Source of the DNA: Sphagnum magellanicum
Lineage: Eukaryota; Streptophyta; Sphagnopsida; Sphagnales; Sphagnaceae
Assembly (NCBI GenBank): GCA_021904315.1
Contig: CM038915.1
Span: forward strand, 14,694,001 to 14,758,000
Reading direction: 5' to 3'
Length of the DNA stretch: 64,000 nt
This document shows, in pieces, positions 7,403 through 21,114 of this stretch. A program made the translations under genes and the position numbers. The notes under the pieces were generated by a model. The model was not told the DNA's origin. It saw only the letters and a list, made by a program, of their open reading frames with translations, and did not search any database. Positions within the stretch are counted from its first letter, which is position 1. Every line of letters starts with the position of its first letter.

Positions 7403-8785
7403 TTTTAGTACAACAAATGCTCTAAGAAAGTAGGTCCATCTACTCTTTGGACACCATAAACAATGCGCCCTCCTACAAAAACGACGAGCAAATTGTAGCT
7501 TAAGTGTTTGAACACCATGCGGTCTACACTATATTTGGCATTTTGGGGAGTTATAACTTGGAATGGAATTTCAAATATTGAAATGTTTATCACTTGTACA
7601 ACGGATGTAACCAAAATTAATATTTATAAGTGTGTCTAGCTAATGTTTAAAAAATGTCAGTTTAACTTTTTTAAAAGTGTGTCTAGCTAATGGTTACAAA
7701 AACACAAGTTTAATACTTATAAAAGTATGGAGGGTGTGATAGTTTAACGTTCATAGATGTCAACTGTGTTAACACTTATAAAAATTTCAGATGTACATGA
7801 TATCTTGTTAACATTACCGTTTTATGTTTGAAATGACCTTTTTGTTTTTTAAACATGTGAATATCTGATCTTGCAGATATATATCTATACATAGCTTATC
7901 CTTCTCGTCCTTGTTTCAGGAATGTCTATGCCTCTTACATCGTGCAGACATTGAGACAGTAGACTTCAAAATACAAGAAAGCTTTTTGAGGAAGGTTGGT
8001 ACAAGCCATTTGTGTACCTTTCGATTTCTGAAAGGAGAGAAAATGTGCATTTCAAGTCATGGCTGTCACTGAACACGTTCCAGTCAAGTTTGAAGGCAGA
8101 CAATCCGATCAGGCCAAGAATGCAGTCTTTTTAAGGACTTGATTAAGGGTTGTACTACACATGTTGATTATGGGTCCTACTTCCGAGGTTCCAAGCTTTC
8201 CAGATTTCATTTACATTTAGACCTTTCAACAGTCCCTCTGTATCCAAGCAAATCCACACCAAATACTTGACCAACTCCAAATACATGGAGCAATTCAGGA
8301 CAAATTTCTGTGTCTCGTACCATTCCACTGCTGCTCCCGCCATCCCCGCTCCCCAAGGTCATCTGAAAGGACCGCCACACTCATAAATTGAGTCTGAGAA
8401 AAAAATGGCCAGCTGATCACTCCCAGAGCTCCAACTTAGTCATACAAAAGCATAGGAAATGAGGAAACATATGAATTTATAAATTCCGGTTGCAATAGAA
8501 ATCATGGATTGCAAATTTATATTATATACTGCACAGCTGGCTCTAATTTGTTCAGAAAGAATGTTCCACAACAGCAATCTACAGCCGCTATGTACGAATG
8601 CACAAGTATACTAATGCATGTTAATGACACGCCGGCATGCATGCCCGCATCATACTACTGGCTATATTATTTTCCTCCTCGAACTGGGGAACAAACAAGA
8701 CTAGAAAAGTTCCCCTGATCAACGACTGACCACCAACTTCCTGCTTGTCACCGACTGCAACATCCTCGTCGGGCAGCAAGCAATT

Positions 8786-9788
8786 TTAACAACTGTTCCA
8801 GGCCAGAACCCCGCTGTCGTTGGAGACGTTGTTATTTATGTCGTAAGACGTGCGAACGACACTGCCGTCCTCCTGTGCGCAATTAGCGAAAATGAAGAAC
8901 GGCGATCCAACTAGGCCAAATCCTTCTGGCGTACACGTCGCAATGTAGTCGCTTCCCTCCACCAAGTTCCCGTTGTTGTTGCTTATAAAGGGATTGAGAT
9001 CTAAACTTGAGGAGGCGAGAACTCCGGCGTCGTTTGCGCAGTTGGCGGATACGACGCTTCCCGTGACTGAGAATGGTGCTTGGCAAGATGCTGTGAAACC
9101 GCCACACTGGTGATGAATGCCACATCAACATACCCATCCCACGAATTAGTAGTCATGATCTGTATCTTCGTCCGGCGGAAACTAGTGGAGCTGTGTTACA
9201 TGCATATTCAAGAAACAAACAATACGAAGACGATGCATATTTCATGAGGCATGTCCGTTCGGGCACCACATGCAGTCTACGGCTACGTACTGGGCGGGAA
9301 CTAGCTCGTCCAAATAGATCGAGCTGGACGCATTCAAGTGTCCAACAAGACGTCCCCAGTACAGCACTATATTAGACATGACACTTGTCAAATCCACCCG
9401 CAATTGGTATATATCCAGAATCCAGTGCACTCCAAGAGATGAAGAGAACCGGAGATCATGAACATGGCCGATGAAGAATCACATTTCTCAAGCATTAGGC
9501 CGGAACGGAAGGAGCGGTTACAAGCAGGAGCTGTGGAACAGTGATAATCAAGAGCATTGGAGAATCACGACATCATGGAACAAGCGCAAATCAGGCATCC
9601 AAAGCGTACAAGAAGGAATTATATTTAGATATGGCCATCTAGCTAGGTCATTAAGTATGAACACTGGTATCAATTTCCAACTGCTGTTGGTGGCCGGCAC
9701 TCACCGATGCTTCAGCTCCGTTGAGTAATGCCGACATGCAGAGAAGCCCTGCAGCCACAGCTAGAAGCGCCATCTTCTGCGAAGCCAT
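8786..9788 (-). CDS. Secreted cyanovirin-N homology (CVNH) lectin, copy 1
   Basis: A two-exon gene encodes a 134-residue secreted protein. Exon 1 (9788-9705) gives a 28-residue signal peptide beginning MASQKMALLAVAAGLLC and ending AEAS. A 598-bp GT-AG intron follows. Exon 2 (9106-8786) encodes the whole mature domain and the TAA stop. The mature part has the CVNH two-fold repeat: GGFTASC, then SLDLNPFISNNNGNL (residues 62-76), and again DYIATC, then SYDINNNVSNDSGVL. C36/C51 and C86/C104 match the two disulfides of cyanovirin-N. Extra cysteines at 29 and 134 sit at the two ends. CVNH proteins bind high-mannose glycans; the role in this plant is unknown but a secreted defence lectin is plausible. 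The coding sequence is identical to copy 2. A TATA box lies at 9920-9926 on the same strand. Confidence 0.85.
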
Positions 9789-9919
9789 GATGATCTGATC
9801 AAGACTGAAATTGAGCGGCTGAGTACGGTGGGCTGCGGATGGTATTGAAAGAAAGCTGGAGGAGTAGATGAGTTGGGAATGCTTGAGATGAATGGTACTC
9901 CCAGCTCGATCCCATCTGC

Positions 9920-9926
9920 TTATATA
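9920..9926 (-). promoter_or_regulatory. TATA box of CVNH copy 1
   Basis: TATATAA on the minus strand, about 132 bp upstream of the start codon, mirrored exactly at the other copy. It implies transcription start near 9890 and a leader of about 100 nt. Confidence 0.6.
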
Positions 9927-10016
9927 GGTACCAGAGCTCAATCGCCTCTTACCCCTGGACGACTAGCTGGTAGAGTGTGACGGAGGACTATACACGCGTG
10001 CAGGCGGAGTTCGCGT

Positions 10017-18500: not shown

Positions 18501-18589
18501 CGCGAACTCCGCCTGCACGCGTGTATAGTCCTCCGTCACACTCTACCAGCTAGTCGTCCAGGGGTAAGAGGCGATTGAGCTCTGGTACC

Positions 18590-18596
18590 TATATAA
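18590..18596 (+). promoter_or_regulatory. TATA box of CVNH copy 2
   Basis: TATATAA in CCTATATAAGCAG, 132 bp before the start codon. Spacing suggests transcription from about 18625. Confidence 0.6.
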
Positions 18597-18727
18597 GCAG
18601 ATGGGATCGAGCTGGGAGTACCATTCATCTCAAGCATTCCCAACTCATCTACTCCTCCAGCTTTCTTTCAATACCATCCGCAGCCCACCGTACTCAGCCG
18701 CTCAATTTCAGTCTTGATCAGATCATC

Positions 18728-19730
18728 ATGGCTTCGCAGAAGATGGCGCTTCTAGCTGTGGCTGCAGGGCTTCTCTGCATGTCGGCATTACTCAACGGAG
18801 CTGAAGCATCGGTGAGTGCCGGCCACCAACAGCAGTTGGAAATTGATACCAGTGTTCATACTTAATGACCTAGCTAGATGGCCATATCTAAATATAATTC
18901 CTTCTTGTACGCTTTGGATGCCTGATTTGCGCTTGTTCCATGATGTCGTGATTCTCCAATGCTCTTGATTATCACTGTTCCACAGCTCCTGCTTGTAACC
19001 GCTCCTTCCGTTCCGGCCTAATGCTTGAGAAATGTGATTCTTCATCGGCCATGTTCATGATCTCCGGTTCTCTTCATCTCTTGGAGTGCACTGGATTCTG
19101 GATATATACCAATTGCGGGTGGATTTGACAAGTGTCATGTCTAATATAGTGCTGTACTGGGGACGTCTTGTTGGACACTTGAATGCGTCCAGCTCGATCT
19201 ATTTGGACGAGCTAGTTCCCGCCCAGTACGTAGCCGTAGACTGCATGTGGTGCCCGAACGGACATGCCTCATGAAATATGCATCGTCTTCGTATTGTTTG
19301 TTTCTTGAATATGCATGTAACACAGCTCCACTAGTTTCCGCCGGACGAAGATACAGATCATGACTACTAATTCGTGGGATGGGTATGTTGATGTGGCATT
19401 CATCACCAGTGTGGCGGTTTCACAGCATCTTGCCAAGCACCATTCTCAGTCACGGGAAGCGTCGTATCCGCCAACTGCGCAAACGACGCCGGAGTTCTCG
19501 CCTCCTCAAGTTTAGATCTCAATCCCTTTATAAGCAACAACAACGGGAACTTGGTGGAGGGAAGCGACTACATTGCGACGTGTACGCCAGAAGGATTTGG
19601 CCTAGTTGGATCGCCGTTCTTCATTTTCGCTAATTGCGCACAGGAGGACGGCAGTGTCGTTCGCACGTCTTACGACATAAATAACAACGTCTCCAACGAC
19701 AGCGGGGTTCTGGCCTGGAACAGTTGTTAA
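18728..19730 (+). CDS. Secreted cyanovirin-N homology (CVNH) lectin, copy 2
   Basis: Exon 1 is 18728-18811 and exon 2 is 19410-19730, separated by a 598-bp phase-0 intron (GTGAGT to CACCAG). The product is 134 residues: a signal peptide of about 27 residues, then a single CVNH domain. Repeat A (about 30-80) and repeat B (81-131) each have the pattern aromatic-x-x-S/T-C, a second Cys 15-18 residues later, S-x-D-L/I-N and N-x-x-G-x-L. That is the signature of cyanovirin-N and its fern and fungal homologues. Known members bind alpha-1,2-mannose ends of high-mannose glycans. Cys29 and Cys134 could form a third bridge joining the ends (inference). The gene is intact and identical in coding sequence to copy 1, which lies head-to-head 8.9 kb away. 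Only the signal-peptide exon appears as an obvious long ORF; the domain frame opens after the splice. Confidence 0.87.
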
Positions 19731-21114
19731 AATTGCTTGCTGCCCGACGAGGATGTTGCAGTCGGTGACAAGCAGGAAGTTGGTGGTCAGTCGTTGATCA
19801 GGGGAACTTTTCTAGTCTTGTTTGTTCCCCAGTTCGAGGAGGAAAATAATATAGCCAGTAGTATGATGCGGGCATGCATGCCGGCGTGTCATTAACATGC
19901 ATTAGTATACTTGTGCATTCGTACATAGCGGCTGTAGATTGCTGTTGTGGAACATTCTTTCTGAACAAATTAGAGCCAGCTGTGCAGTATATAATATAAA
20001 TTTGCAATCCATGATTTCTATTGCAACCGGAATTTATAAATTCATATGTTTCCTCATTTCCTATGCTTTTGTATGACTAAGTTGGAGCTCTGGGAGTGAT
20101 CAGCTGGCCACTTTTTTCTCAGACTCAATTTATGAGTGTGGCGGTCCTTTCAGATGACCTTGGGGAGCGGGGATGGGGGGAGCAGCAGTGGAATGGTACG
20201 GGACACAGAAATTTGTCCTGAATTGCTCCATGTATTTGGAGTTGGTCAAGTATTTGGTGTGGATTTGCTTGGATACAGAGTGACTGTTGAAAGGTCTAAA
20301 TGTAAATGAAATCTGGAAAGCTTGGAACCTCGGAAGTAGGACCCATAATCAACATGTGTAGTACAACCCTTAATCAAGTCCTTAAAAAGACTGCATTCTT
20401 GGCCTGATCGGATTGTCTGCCTTCAAACTTGACTGGAACGTGTTCGCTGACAGCCATGACTTGAAATGCACATTTTCTCTCCTTTCAGAAATCGAAAGGT
20501 ACACAAATGGCTTGTACCAACCTTCCTCAAAAAGCTTTCTTGTATTTTGAAGTCTACTGTCTCAATGTCTGCACGATGTAAGAGGCATAGACATTCCTGA
20601 AACAAGGACGAGAAGGATAAGCTATGTATAGATATATATCTGCAAGATCAGATATTCACATGTTTAAAAAACAAAAAGGTCATTTCGAACATAAAACGGT
20701 AATGTTAACAAGATATCATGTACGTCTGAAATTTTTATAAGTGTTAACACAGTTGACATCTATGAACGTTAAACTATCACACCCTCCATACTTTTATAAG
20801 TATTAAACTTGTGTTTTTGTAACCATTAGCTAGACACACTTTTAAAAAAGTTAAACTGACATTTTTTAAACATTAGCTAGACACACTTATAAATATTAAT
20901 TTTGGTTACATCCGTTGTACAAGTGATAAACATTTCAATATTTGAAATTTACATTCCAAGTTATAACTCCCCAAAATGCCAAATATAGTGTAGACCGCAT
21001 GGTGTTCAAACACTTAAGCTACAATTTGCTCGTCGTTTTTGTAGGAGGGCGCATTGTTTATGGTGTCCAAAGAGTAGATGGACCTCCTTTCTTAGAGCAT
21101 TTGTCGTACTAAAA

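Follow-up and report, generated by a model that had tools for sequence, protein, structure and literature searches.

Cyanovirin-N-type lectin genes of Sphagnum magellanicum occupy dispersed palindromes with probable arm-to-arm gene conversion

Genes for cyanovirin-N-type (CVNH) lectins in the moss Sphagnum magellanicum recur as head-to-head pairs, one gene in each arm of a palindrome. One such palindrome was analyzed within a 64,000-nucleotide stretch of contig CM038915.1 of assembly GCA_021904315.1 (C9:14694001-14758000, hereafter the window), and compared with its relatives across the genome searched (438,994,042 bases in 31 contigs). The comparison indicates that these loci are probably dispersed palindromic segmental duplications whose arms underwent arm-to-arm gene conversion after dispersal, with one palindrome (C9b) originating later. 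Loci outside the window are designated by the handles given in Table 1.

Results

The two arms of the window palindrome form a 3.1-kb inverted repeat around a spacer of 7436 bases and, by direct comparison, are 99.49% identical over 3139 aligned bases, with 14 mismatches and 2 gap positions; an inverted repeat of this length and identity is not a product of chance. No difference between the arms occurs in the 1201 bases surrounding the gene, and the CVNH genes diverge outward, their 5′ ends facing the spacer. The right-arm gene, with an intron bounded by GT and AG, yields a spliced product of 134 amino acids, and the left-arm gene (ATG at 9788, minus strand) encodes a protein identical to it letter for letter, with a CVNH profile match within exon 2 at C9:14702930-14703097 (window positions 8930-9097). 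The presence of paired, intact CVNH genes in an inverted repeat, which an earlier note made from the letters of the window had put forward, is confirmed; so is its proposal of a spliced structure with a 598-bp intron, given the GT and AG ends and the open spliced frame, and exon 1 is signal-peptide-like, as the note had it, when judged by eye. The profile check that it recommended was positive: the spliced product matched the Pfam CVNH family (PF08881) at E=1.5e-13, its score of 51.8 bits exceeding the cut-off of 24.5, and the best-matching stretch spanned only profile positions 1-58 of 102.

Genome-wide, the CVNH profile gave 23 matches and the arm DNA at least 79; the arm-DNA search scored 40 of 183 candidates, and the match counts are lower bounds. 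At least seven head-to-head inverted pairs were found on five contigs, together with a looser eighth pair (C17e) and two unpaired copies (C9c and C12b). Identity within the seven pairs ranges from 94.9 to 99.97% over 2.8-8.6 kb, and the coding sequences are identical in all of them except the C17 pair, which has three differences (six of seven). The close-copy set comprises 18 extracted copies, more distant matches (e.g., C1, C5 at 0.32 Mb, C3, C7 at 19.7 Mb, and C19) being left out of the family. Each of the 18 retains GT and AG at the intron ends and an uninterrupted frame closed by TAA, with six cysteines encoded in exon 2; the TATA-box-like sequence TATATAAGC is located 138-139 bases 5′ of the ATG in 16 of them (not in C9c and C12b), and 0-3 units of a 95-bp tandem repeat were recognized per copy. 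A 19th close copy, on C17 at about 420.8-422.1 kb and 92.8% alike, is frameshifted by a 2-base gap in exon 2, so that 18 of the 19 close copies examined are intact. Five CVNH copies, one of them this frameshifted copy, cluster in both orientations at 0.38-0.46 Mb of C17, and two CVNH profile matches at C5:320270-321674 mark a CVNH gene that is more distantly related and encodes a protein extended at its C-terminus.

In the window, C12, and C5 loci, the arm stops at one and the same position, bordered by one flank (B) on one side and another (A) on the other; given these shared outer junctions, the palindrome predates its dispersal. In an alignment of six loci, the p-distance between the arms of one locus is 0.41% (window), 0.48% (C12), 2.96% (C5), 0 (C9a), 0.04% (C9b), and 2.8% (C17), compared to 2.7-6.4% between loci; the arms of C7, outside this alignment, are 99.97% alike over 2891 bases and 95.6% alike over 1030 more. 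Arms are closer within a locus than between loci even though the palindrome predates dispersal, which is the pattern by which gene-converting palindromes are recognized. Site patterns were also counted in pairwise comparisons of the window, C12, and C5 loci: locus-concordant sites numbered 73, 57, and 46, side-concordant sites 0, 0, and 0, and cross-pattern sites 0, 2, and 1, amounting over the three locus pairs to 176, 0, and 3 site comparisons, where one alignment site may enter more than one comparison. The least homogenized pairs, C5 and C17 (about 3%), show patchy arm differences, none of which falls in the two 200-base bins that contain exon 2; the within-locus distance of C5 is only slightly below its distances to the window, C12, C9a, and C9b (3.3-4.3%). 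Because the window shares its junctions with C12 and C5, and these loci are 3-4% apart while the arms of the window differ by only 0.4-0.5%, conversion is favored for the window pair, for which the earlier note had left the choice between recent duplication and gene conversion. The arms thus appear to have been homogenized by gene conversion within palindromes after dispersal.

According to the model proposed here, a block of tens of kb, consisting of flank B, arm, spacer, arm, and flank A, would have been copied to several chromosomes, after which the inverted arms of each locus would have been homogenized repeatedly by gene conversion, leaving genes identical within a locus and different between loci. 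A half-unit duplicated later in inverted orientation would have given rise to at least one more palindrome, C9b. C9b and C12b have an identical deletion junction, C12b being unpaired and the arms of C9b extending over at least 8.6 kb at 99.85% identity. Since the C12b half-unit stands single with the same junction, C9b most likely became a palindrome through an inverted duplication of its own at a later time.

The C9b case also fits an alternative in which, at each locus, a single dispersed copy was recently duplicated in place in inverted orientation, independently of the other loci, so that conversion would be unnecessary. Arm length and inner breakpoints do vary among loci, in line with such independent origins, as is the left side of C9a, where flank B and a 535-base piece of arm are followed by a duplicate of the right side in inverted orientation that takes in 2.5 kb of flank A; this structure might also reflect break-and-copy repair across the palindrome. 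However, repeated origin would not be expected to place both the flank B-arm and the flank A-arm junctions at the same base in the window, C12, and C5, and the patchwork of differences seen in C5 and C17 resembles conversion tracts, making independent duplication an unlikely explanation for the family.

Both flanks are found again beyond the arms at the window, C9, C12, C17, and C5 loci (C7 lay outside this comparison). Flank B is common to the window and C12 as far as 2950 bases left of the window and extends further with C9b, to about 14.4 kb in total at C9b (14055205-14069574); farther out on this side, C9a, C9b, and C17 remain alike and the window locus diverges at C9:14684017-14684028. 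Flank A is common to C9a and C12 over at least 13.4 kb, including 0.6 kb of arm, and is in large part also found in C12b, C9b, C5, and a stretch near C9c. Homology on side A continues beyond the last examined point, and the outer ends of the block lie beyond the stretches examined; in the window, flank A gives way after 21451 to a dispersed hAT-type repeat. In C12 and C9a the spacer runs in the opposite direction with respect to the flanks, a pattern expected from recombination between inverted arms.

Inverted arms around a variable spacer that flips relative to its flanks, present at many dispersed sites, could also suggest a giant mobile element comprising the entire unit, with the CVNH gene inside long terminal inverted repeats, and the outermost 107-129 bp of the arm do recur alone, at 79-82%, on C17, C9, C15, C7, C14, and C2. 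Against this stands the homology that passes the arms on both sides, over the distances given above and beyond, and the finding that Pfam matches among the nine open reading frame (ORF) pieces tested (three of nine) were all to copia- or hAT-type fragments. No common outer terminus or target-site duplication was found at the points examined on sides A and B, and the three spacer ORF pieces that were searched for a transposase had no Pfam match. The arms as transposon terminal inverted repeats were dropped as a candidate, because flanks A and B each continue for more than 13 kb between loci with no terminus; with no terminus found, the transposon reading was set aside, and we consider it very improbable. 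False duplication of a single copy in inverted orientation during assembly is scarcely credible: the published assembly, taken as the matching one, was built from PacBio CLR-type long reads according to its report (PMC9946827), but the seven loci differ in spacers and flanks, the arms carry genuine differences (14 mismatches in the window and about 3% in C5 and C17), the sequences outside the two arms are unlike (A versus B) in the window, C12, and C5, and a typical long read exceeds the 3-kb length of the arms.

Divergence between copies averaged 4.5% (0.0448) in the intron, 2.8% in exon 1, and 5.9% (0.0585) in exon 2 (12 sequences, unpaired copies included), and the mature domain gave pairwise means of 0.069 for nonsynonymous (dN) and 0.053 for synonymous (dS) divergence (11 copies). 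For 12 sequences, site model M2a was preferred over M1a (twice the log-likelihood difference, 2dL, of 23.3; p = 9e-6), the site fits tagging S60, P97, and S110, as well as L58 in the fit to the whole coding sequence. Upon removal of the unpaired C9c and C12b, 2dL was 14.6 (p = 7e-4) with an omega of 0.89, only S60 was left, and none of 28 null simulations reached the observed 2dL. These site models were run in our own code rather than in codeml, and conversion between copies may bias their result; positive selection, mainly at residue S60, is only suggestive. There is moderate support for a scenario in which the reading frame and the cysteines are guarded while the rest of the protein drifts or diversifies.

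Several observations weigh against the model of maintained, gene-converting pairs. Exon 2 diverges between loci somewhat more than the intron, and omega (1.24 for 12 sequences, p = 0.39; 0.89 for 10 sequences) is indistinguishable from 1, so that amino-acid constraint looks weak. The family includes a pseudogene, the frameshifted C17 copy, and the copies were found partly by the CVNH profile, which favors intact ones. Neutral simulation, which excludes the frameshifted copy and used tree lengths of 0.15 and 0.213 (non-coding tree sum, 0.222), gave values of 0.08-0.16 for the absence of a stop and 0.004-0.022 for the absence of a stop with all six cysteines kept. Finally, assembly or polishing errors could exaggerate the identity of the arms.

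Further similarity searches bear on the identity of the protein. With phmmer, query residues 2-103 align to residues 2-100 of cyanovirin-N with the cysteines in register, and cysteines 29, 36, 51, 86, 104, and 134 are invariant in nine of nine aligned proteins. The earlier note named four core cysteines; the mature protein has six that are conserved. The protein also matches Protein Data Bank (PDB) entry 2jzj ("Cyanovirin-N homolog"; E=1.3e-5), which we take to be of Ceratopteris origin, and cyanovirin-N entries were matched as well. Membership in the CVNH domain family is supported by these profile and sequence matches. The protein is probably secreted and predicted to bind glycans through its two CVNH repeats; such a lectin may act at the cell surface, probably against microbes, in a putative defense role, and the extra gene copies may provide dosage.

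Table 1. Features of the window and positions of related CVNH loci
Feature	Position	Strand	Remark
Left palindrome arm	7403..10540	-	99.49% identical to right arm
Right palindrome arm	17977..21114	+	Inverted copy of left arm
Left CVNH gene exon 1, signal-peptide-like, 28 codons	9705..9788	-	ATG at 9788; other end by arm symmetry
Left CVNH gene exon 2, mature CVNH domain with stop	8786..9106	-	Ends by arm symmetry
Right CVNH gene exon 1	18728..18811	+	Spliced translation
Intron of right CVNH gene, 598 bp	18812..19409	+	GT/AG ends retained in 18 of 18 extracted copies
Right CVNH gene exon 2, 106 codons and TAA	19410..19730	+	CVNH profile match C9:14713419-14713586
TATA-box-like TATATAAGC	18590..18598	+	138 bases before ATG; mirror in left arm 9918-9926
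95-bp tandem repeats 5′ of gene	18213..18499	+	3 units; mirror at about 10017-10304
Spacer	10541..17976	.	Large parts common to C5, C9a, and C12 loci at 89-95%
Flank B of duplicated block, broken copia-type retrotransposon pieces	1..7402	.	Block extends left beyond window
Flank A of duplicated block	21115..21451	.	Cut short by dispersed hAT-type repeat from about 21452
Clear inverted pairs	Window; C9a 14.20/14.23 Mb; C9b 14.01/14.05 Mb; C12 12.2 Mb; C5 3.0 Mb; C7 4.5 Mb; C17 0.45 Mb		
Looser pair C17e	0.38/0.417 Mb		88% over 2556 bases
Single unpaired copies	C9c, C12b		

Other features of the window include the hAT-type repeat abutting flank A (21452-22401), which has a hAT dimerization domain in the ORF at 21582-21974 (E=2.2e-5) and is mostly 72-81% alike at about 30 places among the matches listed, and a 740-bp dispersed repeat at 3543-4282, 86-90% alike at nearly 30 places in the genome among the matches listed. 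A 664-codon open frame at 58978-60972 contains an AP2/ERF-like stretch, and open frames on the minus strand at 39624-42492 resemble exons of a nucleolar GTPase-type gene, both as judged by eye.

Discussion

The main life phase of mosses is haploid, and, to our knowledge, the protection of genes by arm-to-arm conversion in palindromes has been discussed mostly for sex chromosomes. A tentative and more far-reaching interpretation, which we hold to be possible but rather doubtful, is that a secreted lectin arsenal is housed in dispersed palindromes serving as local gene-conversion cassettes, each locus maintaining a forced-identical pair of genes while the loci diverge from one another under diversifying selection on the mature domain. 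If true, a haploid-dominant plant would combine dosage, repair against decay, and variety. The idea of palindrome repair becomes testable in a haploid-phase plant, with internal controls offered by shared junctions, paired and unpaired units, and intact and broken copies. A lectin of the glycan-binding type also seems to have expanded markedly in copy number.

Spore-bearing plants are already known to have CVNH lectins, and palindromes with gene conversion are known as well; among the papers listed, titles and abstract openings held no report of CVNH genes in palindromes or of CVNH amplification in Sphagnum. The window protein has the CVNH domain in common with lectins of ferns and bryophytes, such as the fern protein CtCVNH and PDB entry 2jzj, and, as described in PMC3645700, CtCVNH also carries a signal-peptide-like sequence, as the window gene does. 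In the alignment with cyanovirin-N, the window protein shows two additional conserved cysteines, located at the termini of its mature domain and bringing the total to six. A further difference is that these genes lie in palindromes and their copies appear homogenized within loci. The loci resemble segmental duplications and ampliconic gene families in that their blocks span tens of kb, recur on several contigs, and are roughly 88-97% alike, but most of the loci described here carry the gene as an inverted pair. A close parallel is with the palindromes of the willow W chromosome and of mammalian sex chromosomes, for which gene conversion is described in PMC7023750; as in Sphagnum, these are large inverted repeats with similar arms, genes within the arms, and evidence of conversion. 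In contrast to the sex-chromosome systems, the Sphagnum palindromes are smaller, number at least seven, are dispersed over five contigs, and carry a single lectin gene family.

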